In this document: piece by piece, positions 6,654 through 52,280 of the stretch
Numbering within the stretch: the first letter of the stretch is position 1
Layout: each line of letters opens with the position of its first letter
IMG/VR virus record: IMGVR_UViG_3300034121_000204
Coordinates: 1 to 61,280 of that record
Source: a virus
Strand: one strand, 5' to 3'
Length of the DNA: 61,280 bases
Program-made: the position numbers and the translations under genes
The notes under the pieces: generated by a model
Database searches by the model: none
What the model saw: only the letters and a program-made list of their open reading frames with translations
What the model was told of the DNA's origin: nothing

Positions 6654-8988
6654 CACATCAGCTCCTTATCATGTTGACGTAAGTGTTGCAATAGACAGAA
6701 TAAGAAATGGTAAGTCAAAAGAATTAGTTGAGGCTGTAAGGAATGAGACAGAGAAAGATAAAAGGAACGAAAAGAAGAAAAGACTTCCTGCTGTTTGTTT
6801 CTCAGGCACATTCTCACGCAGAGCTGACAATGCTATTATTGAGCATAGTGGGATTATATGCATAGACTTTGATGGATTCAGAGACGAGCAGCACTTATTC
6901 GCTAAACGTCAAGAGCTTGTTGACGATAACTACTCTTACTGTGTATTTACGTCACCATCTGGTGATGGTATTAAGGTGTTGGTAAGGATTCCAAAAGATC
7001 CTAAGAACCACAAGAAGTACTTTAATTCTTTGCAGAAGCACTACAACTGCGATGAGTTTGATGTTACTTGCAAGAACATTAGTCGTGTATGCTACGAGTC
7101 TTATGATCCTGACATTCATGTTAACGAGTTAGCATTGATATGGTCTGACATGGAAGGCTCTGATGATTATAAGCCAGCAGTTCGTCCGATGATAAAGGTT
7201 GACGACACCAACGAGATAACAAGACGTTTGACACTATGGTGGTGTAAGAACTACGGAATGATTCCTGGACATCGTAACAATAACTTGTATATACTTGCTT
7301 GTGCGTTTAATGAGTTTGGTGTTGACAAGCAGACAGCTAGGAGTATTATTGATGGTTACGACACTAACGGAGAGATGGCTAGAGAGATACCAACGTTGGT
7401 TGAAAGTGCGTACAAGAACACAGCTATACATAACACTAAGTTCTACGAGGACATTGACAAGACTGTCGCAATAAAGAACGACATAAAGGTTGGTGTACCT
7501 TTGGAGAATATACTAAAAGAATACACTAATGTACCTGCTGATGTTATTGAGCACATCAGTTCTGAGGAAGATCCGAATAGGTTCTGGACTAAATCATCTA
7601 AAGGTAAGATTGATCTAGTACCTCACTTGTTAAGAGACTACCTAAGTAACAATGGATTCTATAAGTACTACCCTGAGGGATCTAACAACTTTGTTTTTGT
7701 ACGTGTACATGACAATGTGATAAGCGACTCCAATGAGGAAATGATAAAGGACCACATACTGAGCTACTTGAATAACATCGGTGATATGTCAATCTATAAC
7801 TACTTTGCCATGAACACTAAGTTTTTTACAGAAAACTTTTTGAACTTTTTACCAAAGATTGACGCTAGGTTTATGACTGACAATTCAGAGACAGCATACC
7901 TATACTATAACAACTGCGCTGTAAAAGTAACGCGTAGAGGTGTTGAGAGTATTGACTACAAGGACTTGAATGGTATTGTGTGGGATGATCAAAAGATTAA
8001 ACGTGACTTTATTGAGTCATCATTTGTTGATTGTGAATTTAGAAAGTTCATAACAAACATTTCTGGTGATGACAAGGAACGTGTAAAATCAGTTGAGTCA
8101 ACGATTGGTTACTTGATGCATAGCCATAAGCCAGCAAGCTACTGTCCTGCTGTAATACTTAATGATGAGGTAATTAGCGATAACCCTGAGGGTGGAACTG
8201 GTAAGGGTATATTTGTTAAGTCTATCAGCCACATGAAGAAGATGGTTATAATTGATGGCAAGGGATTCAGCTTTCAGAAGTCGTTCCCATATCAGAGAGT
8301 TCAGGTAGACACTCAGGTACTTGTATTTGATGACGTTAGCAAGCACTTTGACTTCGAGAGGCTATTCTCTGTCATAACCGAGGGGATAACGCTTGAGAAG
8401 AAGAATAAAGACGAGATACATATCCCATTTGAGAGATCACCAAAGATTGTCATAACAACTAACTATGCTATCAAGGGAGCAGGTAACTCATTTGAGAGAC
8501 GTAAGTGGGACTTGGAGTTAAAGCAGTACTACAATAAATCATTCACACCTGAGACTGAGTTTGGTCACATGTTGTTCAGTGGATGGGATGAGTACGAGTG
8601 GAATAAGTTTGACAACTACATGATAAGTAACCTACAGTCTTACCTTAATAAAGGACTAGTGCGTAGTGAGTTCAAGAACTTAAAGACTCGTAAGTTTATT
8701 GCAGAGACAAGCTCTGACTTTTGGGAGTGGGCTGTATCAAATGATAACGTACATACCAAAGCTAAAATCAAGTCGCTAGGACAAGACTTATTTAATTCAT
8801 TTACGCAAGAGTATCCTGACTATGCTACTTATGGTAGGTTTAAAATATCACAGAACAAGTTCTATAGATGGATAGATAGCTACGGTGAGTTTGCATTTGG
8901 AACAAAGCCAGCTGTGTCAAGGACAGCACTAGGTAAGAACATTGAATTTATTGTAAAAGAGAACGAACAACTAAATCTTAAATTATGA
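6625..8988 (+). CDS. Primase (BT4734/VirE-like) and SF3 helicase
   Basis: The N-terminal 180 residues have the BT4734/VirE-N pattern of the archaeo-eukaryotic primase superfamily: CFSGTFSRR, IICIDFDGF and VFTSPSGDGIKVLVRI, with acidic metal ligands in DFD. A linker domain with GMIPGHRNNNLYILA resembles primase C-terminal helicase-linking domains. The C-terminal half is an SF3/D5-type helicase with Walker A GGTGKG (523-528), Walker B LVFDDV (about 566-571) and sensor ITTNY. At 787 aa it is full length. It is the main replication enzyme, priming and unwinding phage DNA. No phage DNA polymerase is visible in the window, so host polymerase is probably recruited. Confidence 0.9.
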   Translation: MITYFKSINDTSAPYHVDVSVAIDRIRNGKSKELVEAVRNETEKDKRNEKKKRLPAVCFSGTFSRRADNAIIEHSGIICIDFDGFRDEQHLFAKRQELVDDNYSYCVFTSPSGDGIKVLVRIPKDPKNHKKYFNSLQKHYNCDEFDVTCKNISRVCYESYDPDIHVNELALIWSDMEGSDDYKPAVRPMIKVDDTNEITRRLTLWWCKNYGMIPGHRNNNLYILACAFNEFGVDKQTARSIIDGYDTNGEMAREIPTLVESAYKNTAIHNTKFYEDIDKTVAIKNDIKVGVPLENILKEYTNVPADVIEHISSEEDPNRFWTKSSKGKIDLVPHLLRDYLSNNGFYKYYPEGSNNFVFVRVHDNVISDSNEEMIKDHILSYLNNIGDMSIYNYFAMNTKFFTENFLNFLPKIDARFMTDNSETAYLYYNNCAVKVTRRGVESIDYKDLNGIVWDDQKIKRDFIESSFVDCEFRKFITNISGDDKERVKSVESTIGYLMHSHKPASYCPAVILNDEVISDNPEGGTGKGIFVKSISHMKKMVIIDGKGFSFQKSFPYQRVQVDTQVLVFDDVSKHFDFERLFSVITEGITLEKKNKDEIHIPFERSPKIVITTNYAIKGAGNSFERRKWDLELKQYYNKSFTPETEFGHMLFSGWDEYEWNKFDNYMISNLQSYLNKGLVRSEFKNLKTRKFIAETSSDFWEWAVSNDNVHTKAKIKSLGQDLFNSFTQEYPDYATYGRFKISQNKFYRWIDSYGEFAFGTKPAVSRTALGKNIEFIVKENEQLNLKL

Positions 8989-9314
8989 AATACTGCGATG
9001 GATTAATTAAAAATAGGTTAGACTTTACCGAGAAGCTTCATGGATTCGCCAAGCATGGTACAAGAAGAAAAACTGAGCTTTCAAAGATGTGTAGAGACTA
9101 CAAGGAAGCTCATGACTATCTTACTGGTAAGATTGAAGCTGTATCTTTTGTTCCTGAGTATAGCATAAGAGAACTAAAGCGGCAGTTCCTTTGGTTGAAT
9201 TATGATCGAGAGCTTCACTCTGAAGCAATTGAGGAGATAGATTATTATGTAAATAAAATGAAAGAAGATGGAGCTAAGAGATTATCAGACGAGGATAGCC
9301 AATCAAGCAGTTGA
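8985..9314 (+). CDS. Hypothetical helical protein, 109 aa
   Basis: This charged, alpha-helical protein sits between the primase/helicase and the SF2 helicase. It overlaps the primase by 4 bp and the SF2 gene by 47 bp, an unusually long overlap that ties the two frames together. The last residues form an acidic, serine-rich tail (SDEDSQSSS). No family recognised; a helicase accessory role is possible. Confidence 0.65.
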   Translation: MKYCDGLIKNRLDFTEKLHGFAKHGTRRKTELSKMCRDYKEAHDYLTGKIEAVSFVPEYSIRELKRQFLWLNYDRELHSEAIEEIDYYVNKMKEDGAKRLSDEDSQSSS

Positions 9315-10503
9315 CATACTTAAAAGACTTCATATTGTTTATATTGCAGCTATGGTACGTGTAGGAAAAACATTAATGGCTTTAGAAACAGCAAAACTAT
9401 ACGGAGCTAAACGAGTTTTATTCCTAACAAAAAAGAAAGCCATATCATCTATTACAAAAGATTATAATGAATTTGGTTATCAATTTGAATTGGTAGTAGT
9501 AAATGACGAGTCAATGCATAAGTTAGAAGATACTAACTATGACTTGGTTATACATGACGAGCATCACAGATTCGGATCATTTCCAAAACCAGGACTAGCA
9601 ACTAAGACATACAAGCAGATGTTTGGCAACAAGCCAATGATATTCTTGTCAGGTACAATGACACCAGAGTCATTCACCCAAGTGTACCATCAGTTCTGGG
9701 TATCACATCACAGCCCATTTAAACATTACGTCAACTTCTATAGATGGGCTGATGACTATGTAAATAAGTTTCAGAGAAATATTAACGGCTTCTTGGTAAA
9801 TGATTACTCTAAAGGAAATGAACTAAAAATAATGGTTGCTATTGCTCCTTATGTAATTACATTTACACAACAGCAAGCAGGCTTCTCTACTGAGATTGAG
9901 GAAGAGATATTGCATATCGCGATGAGCGATAAGACAAAGATGATTGTGAAGAAGTTGGAGAAGGACTTAGTTGTGGAAGGTAAGGATGAAGTTATATTGG
10001 CTGACACACCAGTTAAGCTTATGCAGAAGCTTCACCAGTTGTGGAGTGGTACTGTCAAGTTTGAGAGTGGCAACAGCATGGTTATCGACACTACTAAAGC
10101 TGAGTTCATAAAAGATAAGTGGCGCGACAATAAAATAGGCATATTCTATAAGTTTAAAGAAGAACTGAGCGCATTGAAGCAAGTGTTTGGTGACAGTCTA
10201 ACAACTGAGCTTGATAAGTTTGATAATGAAGGCTATCAGGTTATAGCCTTACAAATTATATCAGGTCGTGAGGGTATATCCTTAAAAAATGCTGAGTATT
10301 TGATTTTCTATAATATTGACTTTAGTGCAACTTCTTATTTTCAAGCGAGAGACCGTCTAAGTCACATGGGTAGGTTAAAAAATAAAATATATTGGTTGTT
10401 TAGTGAGGGTGGTATTGAGGATAAGATATATAAAGCTGTCAAGGAAAAAAAGAAATACACAGTAAATATATTTAAAAAAGATTATAAACACTTAAATATA
10501 TAA
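9268..10503 (+). CDS. SF2 (SNF2/DEAD-like) helicase
   Basis: The superfamily 2 motifs are in order: Q-like start LRDYQTRIANQA, motif I VRVGKT (30-35), motif II HDEHH (96-100), motif III LSGTMTPES (127-135) and motif VI QARDRLSHMGR (about 360). The R-V-G-K-T form of Walker A is common in phage SNF2-like helicases. At 411 aa it is a compact two-domain motor. It probably remodels DNA at recombination or replication intermediates. The start is fixed by the homology beginning at the first methionine despite the overlap with the preceding gene. Confidence 0.9.
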   Translation: MELRDYQTRIANQAVDILKRLHIVYIAAMVRVGKTLMALETAKLYGAKRVLFLTKKKAISSITKDYNEFGYQFELVVVNDESMHKLEDTNYDLVIHDEHHRFGSFPKPGLATKTYKQMFGNKPMIFLSGTMTPESFTQVYHQFWVSHHSPFKHYVNFYRWADDYVNKFQRNINGFLVNDYSKGNELKIMVAIAPYVITFTQQQAGFSTEIEEEILHIAMSDKTKMIVKKLEKDLVVEGKDEVILADTPVKLMQKLHQLWSGTVKFESGNSMVIDTTKAEFIKDKWRDNKIGIFYKFKEELSALKQVFGDSLTTELDKFDNEGYQVIALQIISGREGISLKNAEYLIFYNIDFSATSYFQARDRLSHMGRLKNKIYWLFSEGGIEDKIYKAVKEKKKYTVNIFKKDYKHLNI

Positions 10504-10508
10504 GAATT

Positions 10509-10712
10509 ATGAATAAAATACATAAACCTAAAGGATCACCAAGTCCTGAAGAAAGAGCGTATAGAATTATTACATATATAGGTCTCGATGCTGGTATTAA
10601 AGACGCAGTAAGAAACATAAGTGAAGTAATAAAAGAAGGCAATATAGAAAGGTCTCTTTATTATTATGAAGTTTTGTATCATTTAACAGTATTAAAAGTA
10701 GGAAAACAATAA
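10509..10712 (+). CDS. Hypothetical protein, 67 aa
   Basis: A small helical protein following the SF2 helicase by 5 bp. It has a basic N-terminus (MNKIHKPKGSPSPEER) and two helices. It is the last gene before a terminator and the cassette-like region. No family recognised. Confidence 0.6.
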   Translation: MNKIHKPKGSPSPEERAYRIITYIGLDAGIKDAVRNISEVIKEGNIERSLYYYEVLYHLTVLKVGKQ

Positions 10713-10719
10713 CGTTTTG

Positions 10720-10744
10720 CGGCTTTGTGTCAGTGCCGTTTTTT
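10720..10744 (+). terminator. Intrinsic terminator
   Basis: CGGC (10720-10723) pairs with GCCG (10735-10738), followed by six T. The stem is short. It would end transcription from the replication operon just before the cassette-like insertion. An alternative is that the AACGTTTTGCGGC stretch is a decayed attC-like remnant. Confidence 0.45.
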
Positions 10745-10777
10745 AAACTGGTGTTTAATAATTAAAACAAAATAACA

Positions 10778-10987
10778 ATGAAAACAGAAACTTCAAAAAT
10801 AGACAAAACTAAGGCATTGCATAAAGCCGATGTTAGGCGTAGTGCCATCTTCAACTTAACAGATGTAGATAGATTAAAAAGGAGTGATAAACTTTGGAAG
10901 AAACTTTCAAAAGAACTTGATGTGTTACAAGACAATAACTATACAGCAAGGAAGTTGTTTGATTATGTGGAACGGCATTACGCCTAA
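10778..10987 (+). CDS. Small protein crossing the left cassette boundary, 69 aa
   Basis: The ATG lies in ATAACAATG and the frame runs to a TAA inside the conserved core of the first attC-like site, which is typical of cassette genes. The proposed left cassette edge (G|TTAGGCGT at 10832/10833) falls at codon 19. The first 18 residues (MKTETSKIDKTKALHKAD) would then come from the recipient sequence and the rest from the cassette. The protein is basic and helical, with no domain recognised. If the boundary call is wrong this is simply a small host-derived gene. Confidence 0.55.
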   Translation: MKTETSKIDKTKALHKADVRRSAIFNLTDVDRLKRSDKLWKKLSKELDVLQDNNYTARKLFDYVERHYA

Positions 10988-11105
10988 CGGCAAAGCATTG
11001 GCGAAGGCGGGGATTTGTAGTACTACCGCTTGTTAATGCACAAATGATAAATTAAGTACTACCGTTGAGTAAAAGCACTTCTGCCCCGCTTTTGCCAATG
11101 CAATG
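10833..11105 (+). mobile_element. Integron-like gene cassette 1 (273 bp)
   Basis: The cassette would begin at TTAGGCGT after the cut G|TT at 10832/10833 and end at the G at 11105. Its attC core ACGCCTAAC (10980-10988) is the exact reverse complement of its own start GTTAGGCGT (10832-10840), as expected for an excised circular cassette. It carries most of the 69-residue gene. No integrase is encoded in this genome. Confidence 0.6.
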
Positions 11106-11115
11106 TTATAGGGCG
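10980..11115 (+). repeat. attC-like recombination site 1
   Basis: The outer core ACGCCTAAC (10980-10988) and right core GTTATAGGGCG (11105-11115) bracket a near-continuous 18 bp stem: 10995-11012 pairs with 11084-11101 with only two G-T pairs. The large central part holds the direct repeat AGTACTACCG at 11019-11028 and 11055-11064. Long imperfect palindromes ending in RYYYAAC and GTTRRRY-like cores are the signature of integron attC sites. Confidence 0.65.
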
Positions 11116-11428
11116 TTTATTTATGTACGGATTTTTCAAATTACCAATATCAGATAAAAAAATGTCAAAGGTGATGTATGCACTTTTAAGGACACAAAGC
11201 AAATTAGTCAACTCATACAGCCATAGCATTAACCAATACGATAGAAAGCAAAGTAGTGGTTTCTTGGTTGATGTTGTTGTAGAAGTTGACGAGCATAAAA
11301 TAAAACAGTTTGAAGAATTGGCAGAAGTCAAACTACAAACGAGTGAGGATTTTCAGGGTAAAATGGTTGTTAACTAAATGCCCTATAACAGTCGTACAGG
11401 CGATGGCTTTAGTCTCGCTTGTACTTTG
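11106..11428 (+). mobile_element. Integron-like gene cassette 2 (323 bp)
   Basis: It starts at TTATAGGGC after G11105 and ends at G11428. The left core GTTATAGGGC (11105-11114) is exactly complementary over 10 bp to GCCCTATAAC (11380-11389) near its own 3' end. It carries one complete gene (11123-11377) and its own short attC-like site, so it has the whole standard cassette plan. Confidence 0.7.
11123..11377 (+). CDS. Cassette-borne hypothetical protein, 84 aa
   Basis: The gene starts 17 bp inside the second cassette and stops 2 bp before the attC core, filling the cassette as typical cassette genes do. The sequence has a basic helical N-terminal half and a beta-rich middle (SGFLVDVVVEVDEHKI). 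No family recognised. Cassette genes often serve defence or host adaptation, but nothing in the sequence decides that. Confidence 0.65.
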   Translation: MYGFFKLPISDKKMSKVMYALLRTQSKLVNSYSHSINQYDRKQSSGFLVDVVVEVDEHKIKQFEELAEVKLQTSEDFQGKMVVN

Positions 11429-11434
11429 TTATAT
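11380..11434 (+). repeat. attC-like recombination site 2
   Basis: The core GCCCTATAAC (11380-11389) and the right core GTTATA (11428-11433) flank the inverted repeat GTACAGGCGA (11394-11403) and TCGCTTGTAC (11415-11424), 9 of 10 pairs. At about 55 bp this is the size of short attC sites. Right of G11428 the sequence returns to phage-like AT-rich DNA. Confidence 0.65.
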
Positions 11435-11449
11435 TTTTATTTACATTTG
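11419..11449 (+). promoter_or_regulatory. Promoter at right cassette edge
   Basis: TTG (11419-11421), a 20 bp spacer and TACATTTG (11442-11449) match the Bacteroidetes consensus. The -33 part lies in the attC-like site and the -7 part in phage DNA. Transcription would begin about 11455, almost at the TTG start codon of the nuclease gene. Confidence 0.55.
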
Positions 11450-11456
11450 TCAGTAA

Positions 11457-11726
11457 TTGGCAACAGAGCAGCAAATACAATCTAAATTAATCAAACAACT
11501 TGAGAAAGAAGGTTACTATGTGATCAAGCTCTCTGTCACCAATAAGACAGGTATACCAGACCTTTTAGCAATACCTAAGAACGCAGATGTGCACTTCATT
11601 GAGGTGAAGCGTCCTGGACAAAAGCCAAGACCTTTACAAGTATTCAGACTTAAAGAACTAAACAAGCATGGCGTTAAAGCAACAGTCTACGATGGTACAC
11701 AATTCTATAATGTTCCAGAAGAATAA
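11457..11726 (+). CDS. VRR-NUC domain nuclease
   Basis: At 89 aa this is a stand-alone VRR-NUC (PD-(D/E)XK superfamily) nuclease. It shows the glutamate in the first helix (EQQIQSKLIKQLEKEG), the metal ligand D in GIPDLLAI (about 33-40) and FIEVKRPG (about 48-55) with the E-x-K pair. These enzymes cut branched or structured DNA such as Holliday junctions and flaps. The frame begins with TTG at 11457 (TTGGCAACAGAG), since no earlier ATG is available. The next gene overlaps its 3' end. Confidence 0.85.
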   Translation: MATEQQIQSKLIKQLEKEGYYVIKLSVTNKTGIPDLLAIPKNADVHFIEVKRPGQKPRPLQVFRLKELNKHGVKATVYDGTQFYNVPEE

Positions 11727-13968: not shown

Positions 13969-14133
13969 ATGATAACAGTTGAAGAAATGATAGCTGTAGT
14001 TGAGAACTACATCTACGACAAGAAAAAAGTAAGGGTGCGCATCGAATTACGATACCACCCTTTACTTATTCATTCAGACCTTAGCAAACTTAACTATTGT
14101 TATGGTGTTGCTTTAGATTACTTTAAAATCTGA
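13969..14133 (+). CDS. Hypothetical protein, 54 aa
   Basis: The start ATG at 13969 lies 1 bp after the phosphoesterase stop. The sequence is basic in the middle (YDKKKVRVRIELRYHP). The last 16 bp overlap the end of the giant late gene on the opposite strand, so the two operons interpenetrate. No family recognised. Confidence 0.5.
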   Translation: MITVEEMIAVVENYIYDKKKVRVRIELRYHPLLIHSDLSKLNYCYGVALDYFKI

Positions 14134-17100
14134 TCGGCTGTTTGGCCATTCTTAATTTTTGTTAAATCAGAAACAGTAGGCTCACCTATAGCCTTCATTA
14201 ACTTTAGGTACTCTCTCCCTTGACGTTCTGTCAGACCGCCATTCCTTTCTATGAACTTGATTTCATCAATGGCTGTTTCGGATTCTTTCTTAGCTTTTAC
14301 CATATCAATCTCCCAAGATTTTAGATTACGTCCAAGATCTTTCTGTACAGTCTCGTATCTGTCGTATTGCTTCTCAGTGACAGCTTTCTTTTTGATTCTT
14401 TTTATGTAATCTCTAGATATTGCTCCTACATCTTTTGGTAACAATCCAGTAGAATATAAAAGTGTAGGAAACACAGCTAATCCTACATCTTTACGATCAG
14501 CTTCTAAAAGTTTTTTTGGAGTCTCTCTTCCTTGATAATCATCAATAAATTCTCCAGTTGCATATAGCTTACTTATCTCACCTAGTTCTTTGTATGTATC
14601 CCCAGCAATACCAATCATTCCATACTTTCTATCGTTATCATCACTTATGTATAACTGATATGTTGCTTCTTTCTTGATCTTTTCAATATAATCAGCTTTA
14701 GCTTTATCATCCATTGGATCTTCACCTTTTAACTCTAGCACTTTATTTCTGCTATTAACAGCATCTTTTATTTCTTTATCGTCCATCCAAGGGTACTGCC
14801 CTAATCCTAAATTCAATCCCATAGTTACTATATCATCTAGCATTGGAAGTGGAGAAATAATATCATTTAAAACACTTTTTATTGGGTTCTTAGTAGCATT
14901 GATAATTTTCTTTTTCTTTGTTTCTTCATCATCTTCATCACCAAGTAACCAAGCTGCAATTTGATCATATAGAAGTTTAATTCCGTATCCAAGTAATTGG
15001 TATGTAGCTAATTCAGCACCAAGTCCACGAAGTGATCTCCACGCTATTGCTTTATCTTCATTAGTTGCAGTACCGCTTGAAACAGTAATTAAATCATTAT
15101 ACATCCTAGCCTTTTGGTTAATTATAAATGACGCAAATGGAAGGAAAATTTTTCTAGTCATTTGAACATAAGGATTCTCGCTTGCTAAGAATTCACCTGC
15201 TAGCATTGGATCAGATATATTCTGCTGTCTATCAACCATAATCTGAGCATATTCAGCAGCTTCTTTATCCATCTTATGATTCTTCCAATCAATGTCAGTG
15301 TTTATTCCTCTACGATTTAAATTTTGCAAGTAGTAAGACTTAAATGATGACCTAGCAACCCATACATCTGGCTTAACGAGTAATTGTTTCAACCACCACT
15401 GATTTATATCAGCAATCTTTTTAAACACTTGATCTGTTGTTTGACCTTTCGCTTCTAATTGTCTATCAATTGAATCAATTGTTGATTGTGATTCAAAGCC
15501 ACGATTTGAAATTGGCATACCTGTTTCATCAAGCCACGCATTAAAATCAGCATTTACAAAATCTAATCGACCAGCATTCATAAATGTATTTACAAGTACT
15601 GGAGTTGTCTGCATTAATGTCTGATTGACACCAGCTAGTGCCTTACCAACACCTAGTGATGTTACGTAATTGACAAATTTATTTAGGTACTCTATTGTAT
15701 CTCTTGGAACTACATTTTTACCTTTAGCTCTTTTAATGTAAGTGCTTATTCTTCTTTCAAGTATTGTTCTATCATCAGATTCAGGAACTAATTTTTTGAA
15801 TTCTTTTGAGCTAAGGAATCCATCTACTTGTCTAATTGCAGATGCTGTATTAATATCAGTTAATGCAGATTTAAGTGCCTTTGAGTTATTGGTATCAAAA
15901 TCAAGACTAATATATCCATTTGTAGGTCTTGTTCTTGTTGTTTCCATTAATACACCTGACTTATTCTTATCAACATTATTAATAGATACATTGAAAGATC
16001 CATTCTGATTAGTTAAACTTTCATCAAGTCCTGTATCTTTAGAAGATAAATTTTTTATTGAACGTGGTGTATAGCTTAAATCACTAGTAAGCATAGTGTT
16101 GTATACAGATAAACTCACATCAAATAATTCTGGTTTATATTTTGACCATTCGTTAATCCACCAATCAACAGCCTCTAAATTATTTTTGGATGCGTTAGCA
16201 TTAATTACATCCATATCCATTGAGTCTACATTAAGCTTATCATATACCTCTTTATATAGCTCACCCATTTTCTTTTCTTTAGAGTTTCCATCTTCAATTA
16301 GTAAATCAATTGATTCTTTTAATATCTTAACTCTATTTTGAAATTCAGCTTGCGTTTCAGACTCAGTACCAATAATGTTTCTTTTTAGCTCAGCAAGCAT
16401 TCCCCTTTCATATACGTTCTTAGCATCCATGAAATCTTTTCCTTTAGCAAATAATTGTTTTGAGTATTTGTCAATTATTTGGTTATGCTGTCTAATCGCT
16501 TTATTAACTCCGTTAATTACATTTAGCAACCCCATCTTTCTCATTATATCCATTGAGTTGGAAACACCACCAAACATCTTCTCCATTAAGTTTGGAAGTG
16601 AATATAATTGATCGCTATAAACTTTACCTATTGTTTTAATTCCAAATAATCTTAATGCTCTAGCGACCTTACCTCTATTAACAAGTGATTTAACATTTAA
16701 AGCTCCCTCATAAGAACTAGCTGCTGCCTCAAGACCACTTGTTATTTGGTTAGTTATAAAGTTATCTACTCCTTCAACAATCTTAATTGATTCTCTAGTT
16801 GACATCTCATTCAAGTCAATCTTTAGAACTCTTTTCATTAAGTCCTTCTGACTGTCTTCGAATATAATCTCCTCTCCAGTCATAGGATCAACACCTGTCT
16901 TGAACATTGTCTCTAATGTAGATTTCATTCCATTCATTCTTGACACTAAGAACTCTTTTGCTTTTGATTCTTTGTCAACAGTTTCGTCTGGATTTTCTTT
17001 TAATGAATTAATTATTTTTTGAATTTCATTAAATGACATATCTTTTGATAGTCCTTCAATATCTTCATAAGTAGCAATTAGTTCATCTATCTTTATTTGT

Positions 17101-20100
17101 TCTTGACGATCAATTTCATTCTTAGAAAATTCAGATATATCAGCTATGTTTGCTGCTTGTTTCATCACATACTCTTCATCTTTTCTACGTGATGGCTTAA
17201 CGGCATTCTTAACTTTCTCAGCTATCTCCATGTAAGCATCAATATCCTCAACAAGTGATGGATCAATCTTGGTAAACTCTTTAGCCATACCAACTACCTC
17301 AGCTTGGTTGTCAGTCTTTAAATCCTTACGAATGCTTTTTCTTAATGCAAATGCCTTGCTTAATCTATCTTGATAGTCAGCTCTTTGAAATACTCTCTCA
17401 GCATAATTTGTAAATCGCTCAACCATGACAGGATTGTCAAGATTTAAATAACTTATACGTTTTATTAATACGCCTGCTTGTGGAGTTTTAATTTTACCAA
17501 GTTTAACCATATTACTGATGGCATCACTAAGCATCTTTCTCTTAATATTTAAGTCAGCCTTAGCATCACGAGCAGCACGAGCTTCCATTCTAATCTGATC
17601 TTTTAATGCCGTATACTCGTTGACAGTTACCTTTTTTGCTTTTGGCTTACCTAATACTTTAGCAACAGATGGAGCTTTAACTTGCGCTTTAAAAGCATCT
17701 TTTATTTCCTCTTCACTAAATCCTTCTTCATTTAAATATTGTTTGATTGCAGCATCAGATATACCATTATCCCTTGCTATTACGAGAATATCTACTGCTT
17801 TTTTTGGTCGTCCTTTAGAAAATAATACATCAATATTTTTTATTTCTTTTGATGTTATTTCTTTACCACCTAAAAGAGAAGCAAGTGATCCATCAATAAA
17901 TTCATTAAGATTGATATTTTGAAATTGCTCAGGAGTTAATTTATCAAATGCCTTGAACTTAGATTTAACATAACTAAATACAGCGTTTAGCCAATTCTTA
18001 AATTTAGATTTTTTACCTGCTTCAATTAATGTTTCACCTTTATTAGCAATAAGTTCAGCTAGTGCTTCTTCTCTTGCTAGTTCAACATCTCCTAACTCAG
18101 CTATTTTTCTTTTCAATACTTCAGTTCCTTCTAAAAGATTATATCCTTTGTCAAGTAATTTAGGATTATTTTCTTTTAGGAATCCCATCCAAACATGTGC
18201 GAATTCATGTATAGCTGTATTTGAATTTGCTTTTTCAGGGTTCAAAAATACCTTTCCATCTTTTGTAAATCCATAAACTATCTCGCCATCTTTAACAAAT
18301 TTTTTAACTTCTGGATTCTCAAGTGCTTTATTAAATTCTTCTTGTGTTTCAACTACAGTAACTGAAGGAAATGCAAGTCTAAGTTTCCCTAAAAGTTTTT
18401 GAAGTTCAGTCATTTTAGTTGAAATCTTAGCACCTCTAAATGCTTTTATTCCTGCTATTGGACCACTTGCTGCTACTGCTTGATCTATTGCCTTATTAGG
18501 AGATGGTAACTTACCTGCCTTATCTTCTTTATTTAAGTAGAATGATTTACCATACATCTCTGGAAATATATCAGCTGCATGCACAGGAGATTCTAAAATA
18601 CCAATCAACCCACCTTTTACACCATATGGATAGTTTCTGTGTTTTGGATTTGTTATTCCAGGGTTTAATACATCAACACCAGTAATGCCAATAATATGAT
18701 TAGAAGGTATTTCTTTTGTTGATTCATCTTGTATTGCATTATTTATTGTTTGAAGATGTATATACTTATAGTAAGATGCATCCTTATTACCAACTAAAGC
18801 TAGTGCTGATTTACTTCTAGGTTTCCCTGGTTTTGTTTCTTTATTTAATTGAATCCCACCTGTAAATAAAAATCTAGTAACATTTGCTCTTTCACCAATA
18901 GGCTTTAAGTTATTCATGTTATCAAGAAGTTCATCTATAGTTTTATAGTTATTTTCTTTTATAAATGATATAACTTTACTATCTGGATTAACAGCTGATA
19001 TATCTTCAATTAAACCATTTAATGAGTTAACTCTTTCTGCTTTATTAAATTTTTTCTTTATTGTATCAGAAGCAAATCTAAATAACGCTTCATTTGTTTG
19101 AATAGAATCTTGTCCCATTTTAACAATGGCCATAGGTACTTGTCCTTGCGGAAGTTTTCCTTCAGACCAAAGTCTATCAAATAAATCTTTATTTTTAGAG
19201 TATACCTCTTGTGCTCTTGAAAGCATTCCTTCAGCTTCTTTTTTATCAGTGTTAGCCCAAGCACTATTCTCATTTCCTTCCGTAAGATTAAATCCTATAC
19301 CACCATTTACATCAATTGTATTTCCTGTAAATTCATTCTTTACATTTCCAGATGTCAACTGATCAGATATAGTAAATATCATTGGTATACCATTATAATC
19401 TGATATATCTTTTATTATACCTCCTTTAAATGCTGCCTTTAATTTATCTCCAAATCTTTTAACTAAAGAGCCTATATTTACTTTACTCTTAGTAGTTAAA
19501 TTAGAAGGAACGTCAAAATTAGCTATATCTTCAGACATAGCATTCATTTCTTCAACTACTGAGTCAACTTCTGGAGCTTGTGTAGCTAAATTAGGATTAA
19601 ATACTATTATATTTTGTATATCTTGTTTTTGAGTTTTAAGGTTAGTATCTGTAAATCTAATAGCTCCAAAACCTTGATTTTCTAACTCATCATAAACTTT
19701 ATTTATATCTTCATCAGATAATGATGTTTCAAATCTAGGATCTAATAATTCGAATAAATTTAAATCATTAACATCCCATCCTTCTTCTTTAGATTTTAGC
19801 CCTAATTTATTTATTACATCAAATGCTTGTTCTTCTTCTGCAATTATATTTTCATCTATATCAAATTCAGATACAACTCCTTCATTTTCTTTTGTATATT
19901 CTTCAGCTTGACCTTTATCTTCACTCACAAACAAAGGGGTTTCTTTATTTACATTTGTTAAGTCACTAACATTTCCACCATGATAAACCTTTATAGTTTG
20001 TTTTCCTTTTTGGAATTTAGGTTGTCCACCAAATAATCCACGTAATTTATTTACTTCTTCTTGGACACCCCTGCCTTCGATAGGGCGATTGCCAAGATCT

Positions 20101-22748
20101 GTTTCTGGCTTCTCGGTTTCCCCGATTGGCCCTTCTCCTTCCCTGATTTCAGGTTGTCCTTGTTCAGTTCCCTGATATTGAACGCCACCGCCTTCTGCTG
20201 CGACTTCTTCGACTGGTTTTGTGCTTTCTTTAACGGCATTTTCTGATATTGTTTTTAGTTCATTATTAATCTCGTTAACCCTATTTGAAATTGGAGTAAC
20301 AAGAGCAGGATCTTTTCCTTCCATCTGCTTACGCAAATTTTCTCTCTCATTTATTAATTTAAATGATGTGTATTTATCATCGCTATTTAAATTATCAGGT
20401 ATTTGTCTTAGAATTCCTTCCGATTCTTTTAGTGAATTTAATTCTGCTTGACCTTGATCTTTTGTAATTTCACCAGATAAAATTCTGTCTTTTATATTAA
20501 GAACAAATAATTCTTTAACGTCTTTACTATTTATTGCATTCTCAATATTCTGTAGTTGATACTTATCAAGCTGTTGTTTAGCTGTTAAAGTTGCTTGAGT
20601 TAATGACTGCATACCAGCACCACCTAATAAACCAAGCATACCTGCTTTATTAGCCCTTTGAAAAACCTCACCCCAAGTTTTAGGATTCTCAAAATATTTT
20701 TTACCCTTAGCTTGATTTAGTAATTCTTTAGCTCCTATCTCTGTTAATTCTTGAGCTGCCTCGGTTGAATACTCAATTAAACCAGCCCCAGAAATTTTTA
20801 ATACTTTATTTGCAATAAGCCCCTTTAATTGTTTTTCTACAGAATTTTCAATCATTTCAGCCGTAGCATTTTCTGGCAATTCTTTTAGTGATTTAGAAAA
20901 AATATAATTAACTACTTTACTATTTACAGGTGATTTACTAAACGCTTTAGTTAAACCATATTTCTCAAGTAAAGATGTAACAGCACCAACTGAACCAGCT
21001 AATAATATTTTTTGATATTCAGGAACATCTTTAAACTCTGGGCTATTCATTTGGTCTCTAAAATTAGTATATGAAGCACCAAATAAACCCATAGTAGCAC
21101 CAACAGGTGAACCAGTCATAGCACCAGCTAAAGCAGATCCACCAGAATTTGCTAAACCAAAAACAACTTGTTCAAAAGCATTTCTATTTTCTGATGACAA
21201 ATATTCCTCACTGAACGACTCAGGTGCAAATTGAGATGTCAACACGCCCTTTGCTGATCCTCTTGCATATTCACCTCCTTCAATAACTGCTCTTGCAGCT
21301 TGCTCCATACCTTGAACAAAAGAGAATGCAGTTCCAGACAAAATGTTACCTCTTTCTGATTCAACGACAAAAGCATTTCCAGCTATATTCTTTATATCTG
21401 ATTGCTCATTTGATATGTTTCTATAGTCATTCTTTAACAACTTTACATTGTTATCAATGTCATATTTGCGTTGATTTATTTTTGGAAGATAGTTAGTATT
21501 GTAATCTTCTTCTGTAATTAATCCCTTTTTAAATGATTCATTAACTGTTTTTTCATATTCATTAAGCTCAGATACCTCTTTTTTAATATCTTCTTTCTTT
21601 AAAATAGTCTTAGTAATGTTGTCATTTATTCTCTCTATCTCATATTTATCGAAAGCAGCAGCTGATCTATATTTGTCTTTGGACATATAGTCTAACTTCT
21701 TTTCTCTTTCTTTATCTAATTGAGGAAGTAATTCGTCTAATTCTTTTTGCAAGAAAACTACATTATATGGATTTGTTTTCTTCTCTACCTCTATACGATC
21801 TCTTAAATCATTTATTTGTTTTTGTTTTCTTATATATTCGTCATTAGCGATATTTACTTCTAAAAATCCTTTAAGTAATTTTGATTCTTCATTATCTCTA
21901 TCAGTTGTCCAGTTGTCAAGATTTATGAACTTACTTTCTCCAGTAATACTATTTTTAATTTCAATACCATCGTATCCATATCCAGCAGGGCCAACTTGTA
22001 AATAATCGTATTTCTTTAATTTGCCTTGTAATTTAGATACAACATCATCTTCATTTGATCCAATTAAATCTGAATCTATTGATGATAGAACATCATTTAA
22101 GTCGTTTTCTTTTTGAACAGCATTAACATCTTTTTCGTATCTTCCACTTTTAACGTATTCAATATATTTCTGATCATATTCCTTCTTTTGAGTTTCATCA
22201 GCTATATTAAATAATTTACCATCAACTATTCCTGGAGTAAATGCTTTTTCTTCAGGTGCTTTTTTAGCTAATTCCGCTTGTCTTTTTTTCTCTTCCTTTT
22301 GTAATTTATCAGCTGTTAAATTATAAGTCTCTTTTACTTTCTTTTGATCTTGTAAATCATAAGATATTTCAACTGGATTACCTTTTAAGTCAGCTATTTT
22401 AGTAGCATTTTTATTAAGGTAGTCATATCTTTCTTTTAAATCTCCAGACTTTAACTCTTTATAATCACCTGATCCTGTAATATCTTTATACCATTTGCCA
22501 GCAGATCTTTTATAGTTTTCGTTATTCCAAGGATTTACATAAATACCGTCATCTTGTGATGAAGATTCCGAACGCTGTTTTCGAGCCGTTTCTTGCGTAA
22601 CCAATAAAGCACGACCATCCTTTTCCGTTGATTGTGAAACCTCTTTTTTTTTTACTTTGTTGATTCCATCATCAGCAACAATAACAGGCTTGATAGATCT
22701 ATTGATTCCATCGTCAGCTACAATAACAGGTTTAATTTCGTTTGGCAT
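14118..22748 (-). CDS. Giant polyvalent internal virion/ejection protein, 2876 aa
   Basis: Minus strand, last gene of the late operon. The N-terminus holds two copies of IKPVIVADDGIN (residues 5-16 and 19-30). A coiled-coil-rich stretch and a hydrophobic, glycine-rich region (about 470-570) follow. Near 918-1030 a segment beginning KVYHGG resembles ADP-ribosyltransferase-like modules. Around 1510, AIHEFAHVW carries the HExxH zinc-protease core. The last third is a long helical region with hydrophobic stretches near 2570-2660. This matches the large polyvalent proteins that podoviruses eject with the genome to open the envelope and disarm the host. It follows two other ejection-type proteins, like the T7 gp14-15-16 order. 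The exact chemistry of each module is inferred. Confidence 0.8.
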   Translation of the reverse strand: MPNEIKPVIVADDGINRSIKPVIVADDGINKVKKKEVSQSTEKDGRALLVTQETARKQRSESSSQDDGIYVNPWNNENYKRSAGKWYKDITGSGDYKELKSGDLKERYDYLNKNATKIADLKGNPVEISYDLQDQKKVKETYNLTADKLQKEEKKRQAELAKKAPEEKAFTPGIVDGKLFNIADETQKKEYDQKYIEYVKSGRYEKDVNAVQKENDLNDVLSSIDSDLIGSNEDDVVSKLQGKLKKYDYLQVGPAGYGYDGIEIKNSITGESKFINLDNWTTDRDNEESKLLKGFLEVNIANDEYIRKQKQINDLRDRIEVEKKTNPYNVVFLQKELDELLPQLDKEREKKLDYMSKDKYRSAAAFDKYEIERINDNITKTILKKEDIKKEVSELNEYEKTVNESFKKGLITEEDYNTNYLPKINQRKYDIDNNVKLLKNDYRNISNEQSDIKNIAGNAFVVESERGNILSGTAFSFVQGMEQAARAVIEGGEYARGSAKGVLTSQFAPESFSEEYLSSENRNAFEQVVFGLANSGGSALAGAMTGSPVGATMGLFGASYTNFRDQMNSPEFKDVPEYQKILLAGSVGAVTSLLEKYGLTKAFSKSPVNSKVVNYIFSKSLKELPENATAEMIENSVEKQLKGLIANKVLKISGAGLIEYSTEAAQELTEIGAKELLNQAKGKKYFENPKTWGEVFQRANKAGMLGLLGGAGMQSLTQATLTAKQQLDKYQLQNIENAINSKDVKELFVLNIKDRILSGEITKDQGQAELNSLKESEGILRQIPDNLNSDDKYTSFKLINERENLRKQMEGKDPALVTPISNRVNEINNELKTISENAVKESTKPVEEVAAEGGGVQYQGTEQGQPEIREGEGPIGETEKPETDLGNRPIEGRGVQEEVNKLRGLFGGQPKFQKGKQTIKVYHGGNVSDLTNVNKETPLFVSEDKGQAEEYTKENEGVVSEFDIDENIIAEEEQAFDVINKLGLKSKEEGWDVNDLNLFELLDPRFETSLSDEDINKVYDELENQGFGAIRFTDTNLKTQKQDIQNIIVFNPNLATQAPEVDSVVEEMNAMSEDIANFDVPSNLTTKSKVNIGSLVKRFGDKLKAAFKGGIIKDISDYNGIPMIFTISDQLTSGNVKNEFTGNTIDVNGGIGFNLTEGNENSAWANTDKKEAEGMLSRAQEVYSKNKDLFDRLWSEGKLPQGQVPMAIVKMGQDSIQTNEALFRFASDTIKKKFNKAERVNSLNGLIEDISAVNPDSKVISFIKENNYKTIDELLDNMNNLKPIGERANVTRFLFTGGIQLNKETKPGKPRSKSALALVGNKDASYYKYIHLQTINNAIQDESTKEIPSNHIIGITGVDVLNPGITNPKHRNYPYGVKGGLIGILESPVHAADIFPEMYGKSFYLNKEDKAGKLPSPNKAIDQAVAASGPIAGIKAFRGAKISTKMTELQKLLGKLRLAFPSVTVVETQEEFNKALENPEVKKFVKDGEIVYGFTKDGKVFLNPEKANSNTAIHEFAHVWMGFLKENNPKLLDKGYNLLEGTEVLKRKIAELGDVELAREEALAELIANKGETLIEAGKKSKFKNWLNAVFSYVKSKFKAFDKLTPEQFQNINLNEFIDGSLASLLGGKEITSKEIKNIDVLFSKGRPKKAVDILVIARDNGISDAAIKQYLNEEGFSEEEIKDAFKAQVKAPSVAKVLGKPKAKKVTVNEYTALKDQIRMEARAARDAKADLNIKRKMLSDAISNMVKLGKIKTPQAGVLIKRISYLNLDNPVMVERFTNYAERVFQRADYQDRLSKAFALRKSIRKDLKTDNQAEVVGMAKEFTKIDPSLVEDIDAYMEIAEKVKNAVKPSRRKDEEYVMKQAANIADISEFSKNEIDRQEQIKIDELIATYEDIEGLSKDMSFNEIQKIINSLKENPDETVDKESKAKEFLVSRMNGMKSTLETMFKTGVDPMTGEEIIFEDSQKDLMKRVLKIDLNEMSTRESIKIVEGVDNFITNQITSGLEAAASSYEGALNVKSLVNRGKVARALRLFGIKTIGKVYSDQLYSLPNLMEKMFGGVSNSMDIMRKMGLLNVINGVNKAIRQHNQIIDKYSKQLFAKGKDFMDAKNVYERGMLAELKRNIIGTESETQAEFQNRVKILKESIDLLIEDGNSKEKKMGELYKEVYDKLNVDSMDMDVINANASKNNLEAVDWWINEWSKYKPELFDVSLSVYNTMLTSDLSYTPRSIKNLSSKDTGLDESLTNQNGSFNVSINNVDKNKSGVLMETTRTRPTNGYISLDFDTNNSKALKSALTDINTASAIRQVDGFLSSKEFKKLVPESDDRTILERRISTYIKRAKGKNVVPRDTIEYLNKFVNYVTSLGVGKALAGVNQTLMQTTPVLVNTFMNAGRLDFVNADFNAWLDETGMPISNRGFESQSTIDSIDRQLEAKGQTTDQVFKKIADINQWWLKQLLVKPDVWVARSSFKSYYLQNLNRRGINTDIDWKNHKMDKEAAEYAQIMVDRQQNISDPMLAGEFLASENPYVQMTRKIFLPFASFIINQKARMYNDLITVSSGTATNEDKAIAWRSLRGLGAELATYQLLGYGIKLLYDQIAAWLLGDEDDEETKKKKIINATKNPIKSVLNDIISPLPMLDDIVTMGLNLGLGQYPWMDDKEIKDAVNSRNKVLELKGEDPMDDKAKADYIEKIKKEATYQLYISDDNDRKYGMIGIAGDTYKELGEISKLYATGEFIDDYQGRETPKKLLEADRKDVGLAVFPTLLYSTGLLPKDVGAISRDYIKRIKKKAVTEKQYDRYETVQKDLGRNLKSWEIDMVKAKKESETAIDEIKFIERNGGLTERQGREYLKLMKAIGEPTVSDLTKIKNGQTADQILK
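22659..22736 (-). repeat. Tandem repeat coding IKPVIVADDGIN twice
   Basis: Two near-identical 12-codon units separated by two codons start the giant protein. The DNA copies differ at synonymous positions (GTAGCTGACGATGG against GTTGCTGATGATGG), so selection appears to hold the peptide rather than the DNA. Confidence 0.85.
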
Positions 22749-50464: not shown

Positions 50465-50681
50465 AGCGAGTATCACCTATCAATACGTCATGACCTGCCG
50501 CCTTGTCAAAGTATACTACGCTATCCTCAGTCATGCCCTGAACTAGTGGACCTGCCTTTACAACTTTAGCTTTATGATACCTTAGCTCACGCTTGTCATC
50601 CATAGTCATTATCAGACCTAATTTATTCTCTGCCTTATCAGCTATACGCTCGATAATAATGAACTTATTTAGAACCTTCAT
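50424..50681 (-). CDS. groES: GroES-like cochaperonin, 85 aa
   Basis: A single-barrel GroES pattern: LNKFIIIERIADKAENKLGL with a mobile loop of about 12 residues carrying the hydrophobic GLIM (normally G-I-V-L), a central HKAKVVKAGPLVQG and a closing KDVVCVL. At 85 aa it is about ten residues shorter than bacterial GroES. It follows groEL with a 17 bp overlap, the reverse of the usual groES-groEL order. It would cap the phage GroEL ring during capsid or enzyme folding. Confidence 0.75.
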   Translation of the reverse strand: MKVLNKFIIIERIADKAENKLGLIMTMDDKRELRYHKAKVVKAGPLVQGMTEDSVVYFDKAAGHDVLIGDTRFTVIQEKDVVCVL

Positions 50682-52221
50682 AATCTCTTACGTTTGTTAT
50701 AATAGCGTTAGTACTCATAATTGTTGTAGCAACTGATACAGCGTTCAATAGTGCGTTCTTAGTGACTTTCGTTGGATCGATGATGCCAAGCTTTATCATG
50801 TCACCGTACTGCTCTCCTTTTACGTCATACCCACATCCATGAGGCCTAGCATCTAGTATCTCGTCACTATTCTTGCCGGCATTTGTGACAATTTGCCTAA
50901 ATGGTGCTTGTAACGCATCAATCATTATATCATTTGCCGCATTAGTTCTAGCTAGGTCGTAACTAGCATCCAACAACGCTACACCACCACCAGGCAATAT
51001 ACCATCCTCTAACGCAGCTTGAACAGCACACACAGCATCGTCAATTCTGTCCTTCTTCTCCTTCTGCTCAATGTCACTCAATGCGCCAACATAGATGACA
51101 CCAACACCACCAGATAGATTTGCAATTCGCTCGTTCAAGAAGTTCTTCTCATCGTCACTTGTAGACTCTCCACGCATCTCCTTCAATTCATCAACCCTGT
51201 TACTAATAGCATCTTCTCTTGAAGCCATGTGCATGAATACCGTCATACCCTTGCTAACAATAACCTTTGACGCTCTACCCAAATGGTCTAAGTCAATTAA
51301 CGATAAGTCATCACCAGTGTCCTCAGAGTAATACACACCACCTAGAGCGACAGCCAAGTCCTCCAACAAGTCTTTCTTTCTGTAACCAAATGACGGAGGC
51401 ATAATGGCACATGCCTTAATCTTACCTGCCGCAACGTTCGCATTCAATGTGTTCAACGCATTCTGACCTAACTCGCCAATGATCAACAACGACTTCTGCT
51501 GCGTTACTATTGGTATTAATATACGCTCTAAGTTCTGGATGTTGTTTATCTCGTGGTCAGTTATCAAGATATATGGATTGTCTAACACACACTCTTGCTT
51601 CTTATGGTCATTGATGAATAGCCTTGAGGAATATCCCCTGTCTATCTTCATTCCCTTAATTATCTCAACATACGTTGATGTCGTCATGCTATTCTCAACT
51701 GTAACCATGTCAACCTCACTGAAAGCATCAGCAATCATCTTACCAACCTCCTTGTCGTTGTTAGCACTGATAGTAGCTACGTCAACAAGCTTCTTGCCGC
51801 TTAACTTCTTTGATTTTTTGTCAAGTTTACCAACAATGTTGTTGGTAATTTTGTTAATCTCACGAATCACCTCAGTTATATTTTCGTTTTCAGATAAGTA
51901 CTTATCTGAAGCGTCAATAATAGCCTCAGCTAACACAATACTTGTCGTTGTACCATCACCTGCAACAGTAGCAGTACGCTCTGCCGCCTGACGCATCATC
52001 ATTACTGCCAAATTTTCAGTCGGATCGTACAAATTGATCGACTTAGCAACAGTAACACCGTCCTTCGTAACAGTTAAACCACCAATATGCTGCTCTGATT
52101 CAATTAAGACTGTACGCCCTCTAGCTCCTAACGTACTTTTTACTGCTCCAGCTATCTTCTTGATGCCTTTCTTGAGCTTTTTTTGGCCATTATCGCCAAA
52201 ATGGATCTCTTTTACTATCAT
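50665..52221 (-). CDS. groEL: Chaperonin GroEL
   Basis: Full-length chaperonin (518 aa from the ATG at 52221; the frame extends 13 residues upstream). Equatorial ATP site: TVAGDGTTTSIVLAEAI (about 85-101, with the key aspartate 89) and EKKDRIDDAVCAVQAALEDG with the hydrolysis aspartate, then LPGGGVALLD. The apical domain keeps IDRGYSSRLFIND and DNPYILITDHEI. The C-terminal GGM repeat of bacterial GroEL is missing. Phage GroELs fold capsid or other phage proteins. It is expressed from its own promoter and coupled to groES. Confidence 0.95.
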   Translation of the reverse strand: MIVKEIHFGDNGQKKLKKGIKKIAGAVKSTLGARGRTVLIESEQHIGGLTVTKDGVTVAKSINLYDPTENLAVMMMRQAAERTATVAGDGTTTSIVLAEAIIDASDKYLSENENITEVIREINKITNNIVGKLDKKSKKLSGKKLVDVATISANNDKEVGKMIADAFSEVDMVTVENSMTTSTYVEIIKGMKIDRGYSSRLFINDHKKQECVLDNPYILITDHEINNIQNLERILIPIVTQQKSLLIIGELGQNALNTLNANVAAGKIKACAIMPPSFGYRKKDLLEDLAVALGGVYYSEDTGDDLSLIDLDHLGRASKVIVSKGMTVFMHMASREDAISNRVDELKEMRGESTSDDEKNFLNERIANLSGGVGVIYVGALSDIEQKEKKDRIDDAVCAVQAALEDGILPGGGVALLDASYDLARTNAANDIMIDALQAPFRQIVTNAGKNSDEILDARPHGCGYDVKGEQYGDMIKLGIIDPTKVTKNALLNAVSVATTIMSTNAIITNVRDYEGSK

Positions 52222-52230
52222 TTTATTGTA

Positions 52231-52255
52231 TTTTGTCACAAATATAGTGACAAAA
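52231..52255 (-). promoter_or_regulatory. groEL promoter box inside a perfect inverted repeat
   Basis: TTTTGTCAC (52231-52239) and GTGACAAAA (52247-52255) are exact inverted repeats of 9 bp around a 7 bp centre. On the minus strand the -7 box TATATTTG covers the centre (52239-52246), 18 bp before the groEL ATG. A protein bound to the palindrome would block the promoter. It differs from CIRCE (TTAGCACTC-N9-GAGTGCTAA). Confidence 0.65.
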
Positions 52256-52280
52256 AACAAAAAACCCTCCGATTGGAGGG
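52254..52280 (-). terminator. Intrinsic terminator before groEL
   Basis: On the minus strand, CCCTCC pairs with GGAGGG (52265-52270 with 52275-52280, loop of four), followed by a T-rich tract (52254-52264 in reverse). It ends the upstream 433-residue gene, so groEL-groES has to rely on its own promoter. Confidence 0.85.

Follow-up and report, generated by a model that had tools for sequence, protein, structure and literature searches.

The window analysed here is a stretch of viral DNA of 61,280 bases, which makes up the whole of the IMG/VR virus record IMGVR_UViG_3300034121_000204. Matches to head and packaging families have been obtained for its terminase, portal and structural genes, and the nearest named phages by terminase have Flavobacterium, Cellulophaga, Tenacibaculum and Maribacter as their hosts, from which a host among the Bacteroidota appears likely for the window phage as well.

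Our analysis is concerned with the interval between a helicase gene and a VRR-NUC nuclease gene, to which we refer as "the slot" (Table 1). The slot contains three attC sites, two integron cassettes and the two small ORFs associated with them, preceded by a further short ORF of 67 residues. The locus as a whole has no BLASTN match among phages and plasmids. The C-terminal part of ORF1 is related to an ORF of the phage contig L002, and a genome scan, conducted with two short patterns only, has found no relatives of it; for ORF2, no relatives have been found in IMG/VR, phages or plasmids, and no Pfam, PHROG or NCBIfam family scores above the cut-off.

Table 1. Features of the slot in the window, and recombinase genes in three other virus records (named in the second column)
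Feature	Position	Strand	Remarks
Helicase gene (ResIII / Helicase_C)	9268..10503	+	left slot border; Pfam, relatives, tree
67-aa ORF before attC0	10509..10712	+	no Pfam, PHROG or NCBIfam match
attC0	10704..10841	+	R1 E 6e-10, R2 E 1e-7; start codon of next ORF in loop
ORF1, 69 aa	10778..10987	+	opens in attC0 loop, continues into cassette 1
Cassette 1	10833..11105	+	273 bp; start and R'' complementary over 10 nt
attC1	10979..11114	+	long type; R1 E 3e-6, R2 E 3e-5; alignment A5; resembles attCs in L003, L042
Cassette 2	11106..11428	+	323 bp; start and R'' complementary over 10 nt
ORF2, 84 aa	11123..11377	+	cassette 2
attC2	11380..11437	+	terminal attC of slot, short type; R2 E 6e-9; alignment A3, pair counts, pattern scan
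Right slot border TTATATTTTTATTTACATTTG	11429..11456	+	follows G|TT point also in cassette-free relatives
VRR-NUC nuclease gene	11457..11726	+	right neighbour of slot; PF08774, 7e-9; relatives
Xer-like tyrosine recombinase	L269 8282-9085	-	after chained cassette array
Xer-like tyrosine recombinase	L271 5464-6255	-	after chained cassette array
Xer-like tyrosine recombinase	L272 727-1560	+	after chained cassette array

The attC array of the window

A preceding sequence-only reading had placed two consecutive integron-like cassettes at this locus, each delimited by an inverted pair of end sequences, and both pairs have proved exact, each extending to 10 nt: GTTAGGCGT(A) at position 10832 is the exact complement of (T)ACGCCTAAC, which ends at 10988, while GTTATAGGGC at 11105 is the complement of GCCCTATAAC, which ends at 11389. 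Both units have what characterizes an integron cassette, i.e. R''/R' boxes, a G|TT point and a start that is complementary to the cassette's own R''. The two cassettes are thus real, but the array is larger than had been proposed: a third site, attC0, had been overlooked, and the left junction is the end of this attC. For this reason, the join of AAAGCCGATG and TTATATTTTTATT, put forward as the empty site, is not ancestral phage sequence; AAAGCCGATG belongs to attC0, of which it forms the L' arm, and the join occurs in none of the loci that we have compared. Nor is there support for the idea that two cassettes entered previously cassette-free phage DNA in one event, the left junction being attC0 and the slot being common to the phage lineage. 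The assignment of one small gene to each cassette needs amendment for cassette 1, whose ORF opens inside attC0 and outside the cassette.

The cassette start GTTATTG that is expected at the 5' side of attC0 is missing upstream, so that either the left end of the array has been eroded or attC0 adjoins a phage gene. The 67-residue ORF may belong, as cargo, to an incomplete first cassette that has no 5' boundary, or it may be a phage gene.

The classical boxes GTTRRRY and RYYYAAC are fitted by the R' box of attC0 (GTTAGGC) and by the R'' box of attC1 (GCCTAAC); the R boxes GTTATAG of attC1 and GTTATAT of attC2 fall outside GTTRRRY. Folding of the bottom strand had been suggested as a check of both sites. 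Both 3' sites fold into hairpins. For the interval 11380-11434, z is -4.1 on the top and -3.4 on the bottom strand; for the interval 10980-11115, which has a long loop, it is -2.8 on the top strand, but only -1.6 on the bottom strand, where the fold of attC1 taken by itself is weak.

As our initial, loose attC finder returned many false candidates, a strict chain test and covariance models have been used instead. In the chain test, a cassette is accepted if it starts at G|TT, if an R'' is complementary to this start over at least 9 nt, if a well-stemmed attC lies there, and if another attC lies upstream; the window has one such chain, of two cassettes, and 200 dinucleotide shuffles have none, while the same approach has found seven chained cassettes in the unrelated phage L003. 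The first covariance model, R1, combines the L003 array with one attC of L042 (alignment A4), and the second, R2, is based on 19 attCs, the sites of the window being excluded (alignment A7); alignment A6 was not made into a model, since minus-strand mirror hits were mixed in. The L''/L' stem of these sites is imperfect and its structure is kept over its sequence, as is seen in the compensatory changes: 20 double-change cells in A4, against 5.4 in shuffles, and 59 in A7, against 18.6, with 94% of A7 paired, against 35-49% in slid controls.

Across the 61 kb of the window, the strong hits of R1 are attC0 and attC1 only, and those of R2 are all three attCs and nothing else, so that the attC-model search named as a check in the sequence-only reading has come out in its favour; the next R2 hits are the mirror image of attC1 (E 0.03) and one at E 0.76. 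Close relatives of attC2 were present in the training set of R2 and a homologue of attC0 in that of R1, which leaves attC1 as the cleanest independent test. As for controls outside the window, R2 detects four sites on the genome of Polaribacter phage P12002L, detects none on the Flavobacterium phage stretch L185 and misses the Vibrio-type sites of L047.

Given their location between ORFs, the hairpins might also be transcription terminators of the ordinary kind, or inverted repeats that mimic attC by chance, and attC sites are themselves thought to contain weak terminators (PMC9892861). This explanation does not account for the chained 10-nt end matches, which no shuffle reproduces, nor for a covarying attC family present in 75 viral contigs, 73 of which show the AAC/GTT borders (see below); moreover, an Rfam scan of the window has no match and the long loop of attC1 is unlike a terminator. 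We have rejected it as hardly credible, on the shuffle test, the covariation in A7 and the R2 hits.

The sequence-only reading had described the phage as lacking an integrase, and neither an integron integrase (TIGR02249 profile search) nor a tyrosine recombinase (PF00589 search) has a match in the window record, whose completeness is uncertain. Arrays of at least two neighbouring attCs that have no integron integrase are termed CALINs, while a complete integron has intI adjoining the array; with three attCs in 734 bp and no TIGR02249 match in the window, the interval 10704-11437 is, as judged from its sequence, a CALIN that contains three attCs and two complete integron cassettes.

Next to the terminal attC, at window positions 11418-11449, we have also noticed a TAnnTTTG element, TACATTTG, which resembles the -7 box of Bacteroidota promoters; it is located just to the right of the terminal attC and is retained in cassette-free relatives, and the arm of this attC may supply the upstream box.

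The slot across the phage lineage

Relatives of the window phage have been retrieved through the helicase and VRR-NUC, the helicase gene serving both to find them and to place them; all of them are metagenomic contigs. Their comparison has revealed that the content of the slot differs across the lineage. The slot of L010 holds a cassette with an N6/N4 DNA methyltransferase (PF01555, 4.5e-26) and that of L134 two methyltransferase cassettes; in L042/L135 it is occupied by a GNAT/ATPase protein together with a small cassette, and in L041 by a cassette that lacks a gene. Other ORFs are located there in L005, L006 and L008, and the cassette ORF of the more distant L160 shows a DPPY motif and no Pfam match. 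At the slot of L131, L031 and other relatives, attC is absent, and L140 and L004 retain no more of the terminal attC than its 3' end, before G|TT; this remnant looks like the scar of a cassette loss.

L134 and L042 form a pair of sisters in the tree of the helicase. Between these two phages, the flanks of the slot show 98.2% and 99.7% identity, the approximately 1.8 kb between the flanks are unrelated, and the identity breaks at the R'' borders of the attCs. At the level of sequence comparison, the pair shows a recent, wholesale replacement of cassettes, compatible with site-specific as well as with homologous recombination. The earlier suggestion that the phage is a possible carrier of cassettes is borne out in so far as its relatives carry and exchange them.

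The same pair is what one would expect if the cassettes were real but the slot changed only by homologous recombination among phages, through the flanks that they have in common (helicase, VRR-NUC and the terminal attC), integron recombination having taken place only earlier, in bacteria: the long, near-identical flanks and the shared core of the terminal attC allow simple crossing over, and no integrase has been found in these phages. We consider this explanation unlikely, because the core of attC2 recurs with 49 of 49 nt identical in L035, at a different locus and with a different ORF and R'', and because successive cassettes with exact start-to-R'' complementarity, as they occur in several phages, are not made by homology alone.

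Two local irregularities have been observed among the relatives. In L005 (9698-9760), a second attC-like arm, CCATAACCTGGCTTGCACGTCTGTTATTATG, is located beside the terminal attC, apparently in the opposite orientation; and in the reverse complement of L041, from about 745 to about 1724, the helicase gene is broken, relative to the window, by approximately 1 kb of unrelated sequence, possibly an intron or a homing element.

The viral attC family and its start codons

The terminal attC is common to the relatives at the slot and to other phages at other loci, its core being 87% identical in another phage, L036, in addition to the case of L035. At one stem pair of the terminal attC, six sequences have G-C and four have A-T, and the pairing is intact in all of them. 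The exact pattern of the attC2 core has no occurrence in 84,980 bacterial and archaeal genomes. attC0, for its part, shares approximately 80% identity with an attC of the array in L003, and L116, whose helicase is a 63% relative, has a five-attC array elsewhere, after a metallophosphoesterase gene.

Several attCs have the loop TCGTTTTAATG in common. The 20-mer GGCGGTCGTTTTAATGCCGC, an attC hairpin, occurs in 75 IMG/VR contigs (L188-L262), in 73 of which it is flanked by AAC and GTT boxes, and the variants of its arms covary; fragments of host DNA that have been classed as viral could be included among these contigs. R2 recognizes 182 attCs in 73 of the 75 loci (at least two in 46 loci, at least three in 27, and 13 in one). 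Across 66 distinct sites, one fixed position of the arm is mostly unpaired (34%), while its neighbours are paired in 81-98%, and this position is reminiscent of the extrahelical base of attC. A unit without a gene occurs at 3110-3138 of L136, which is from the same contig as L041, with only the loop TCGTTTTAATG between the cassette start and R'', and gives the impression of a cassette reduced to a hairpin; a similar hairpin is located at approximately 470-500 of L017.

Five long attCs have an ATG in the loop: the one at 10778 in the window, those at 8001 and 9820 in L003, and those at 7249 and 8372 in L116. The frames that open there reach 51-115 codons into the next cassette, and in the first four cases this cassette does not itself offer a comparable ATG frame; for the attC at 8372 of L116 a longer alternative frame exists, in another register, and for a sixth candidate, at 8412 of L003, the cassette has an alternative start. 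In L116, a ProQ-like domain begins at residue 22, just past the approximately 17 residues that are encoded by the attC. This small sample suggests that long attCs of this type supply translation starts to the next cassette, and the protein of cassette 1 is probably translated from the start codon inside attC0.

Proposed recombination at the slot, and related systems

We consider it likely that the slot is a cargo site of a lineage of Bacteroidota-type phages, where cassettes are exchanged at attC by a recombinase acting in trans. Site structure, array order, slot variability and cargo families have been established directly; the steps that follow are our proposal. Cassettes would be gained, lost and replaced at the G|TT points of folded attC hairpins (bottom strand) by a tyrosine recombinase, most likely the integron integrase of a host, and homologous recombination between co-infecting phages would probably spread the variants further. 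The source of the cassettes would be a large pool, common to many phages of Bacteroidota-type hosts. As the cargo that can be named is mostly concerned with DNA modification, the slot most likely lets the phages change their protection against restriction, a benefit of methyltransferase cassettes that has also been proposed in PMC9892861. What tells against our proposal are the R boxes of attC1 and attC2 that depart from GTTRRRY, the weak fold of the attC1 bottom strand, the missing cassette border at the left end of the array, the metagenomic origin of all relatives and the lack of an intI above the cut-off in the array-related records.

A different enzyme is suggested by three of the 80 array-related virus records (L269, L271 and L272), where a gene for a Xer-like tyrosine recombinase is located 3' of the last attC, on the same strand, with phage structural genes confirmed in two of the three (G037, G014). 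The catalytic residues of these proteins are kept, and by sequence they match XerC-like, XerA and IntI structures. Such a phage-encoded enzyme might move the cassettes, in trans in the case of the window phage, but we regard this as quite improbable: the gene is absent from the window and from all the close relatives tested, its occurrence is limited to those three records, and the proteins could be ordinary phage integrases or integrases of the Xer/dif type. The match with the IntI model consists of two pieces, at about 150-155 bits, against 494 for the IntI of a Vibrio phage, and the IntI-specific stretch is missing; no integron integrase above the cut-off (265 bits) has been found in the 80 records. 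These recombinases are therefore best treated as a lead, i.e. as candidate cassette enzymes that share sequence matches with IntI, XerC/D and XerA, but which, unlike IntI, stay below every cut-off. The host-derived enzyme acting in trans is retained as the preferred reading.

Phage CALINs are already known, for instance from Polaribacter phage P12002L, Tetrasphaera phage TJE1 and Pseudoalteromonas phage PH101; a survey of 10,705 NCBI phage genomes has described them as separate cases (Qi et al. 2023, PMC9892861). That of P12002L includes methyltransferases, and in the published assay five of six phage attCs recombined with attI1 via IntI1 (PMC9892861). The array of the window resembles these cases as an integrase-less attC array in a phage genome, with methyltransferase cargo in the lineage, but it differs from them in that one slot holds varying cassettes across the lineage and shows scars of loss, in that a near-identical pair has swapped cassettes, and in that the attC family extends to 75 IMG/VR contigs. 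With the cassette arrays of bacteria, both in sedentary chromosomal integrons and in CALINs, it shares the cassette plan, the G|TT borders, the R''/R' complementarity and the arrangement of similar attCs in the same orientation; unlike these, the window array is phage-borne, has no intI that could be found and has attC boxes partly outside GTTRRRY, and some viral attCs carry the start codon of the next cassette.

What is new is the slot with its turnover across a lineage, the pair of near-identical phages, the wide occurrence of the viral attC family, the starts borne by attCs and the presence of Xer-like genes where arrays end; a short literature search of open-licence papers has found no prior report of them. 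Where scattered single cases were available before, one slot can now be traced through a lineage in which cassettes have been gained, lost and replaced at the borders of attCs, and the use and spread of integron cassettes by phages has become a directly testable question. Our findings suggest that the integron cassette system provides Bacteroidota-type phages with a site of gene exchange, and the repeated DNA-modification cargo suggests a fast route for phages to alter their protection against restriction. The findings also point to a cassette pool linked to the Bacteroidota, although complete integrons are rare in complete Bacteroidetes genomes, where one, of Salinibacter ruber, is named (PMC9024848). 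A broader reading, which we offer tentatively and hold to be rather doubtful, is that Bacteroidota phages run an integron-like economy of their own, with an extensive viral attC family, common cassette pools that abound in DNA-modification genes, attCs that give start codons to cassette genes lacking one and, in some phages, a dedicated Xer-like recombinase at the array end; the window phage would then be an integrase-less member that uses enzymes in trans.

Away from the slot, the window record further contains, on the minus strand at 14118-22748, the gene for a protein of 2876 residues and, at 50665-52260, a phage-encoded GroEL (phrog_5725).
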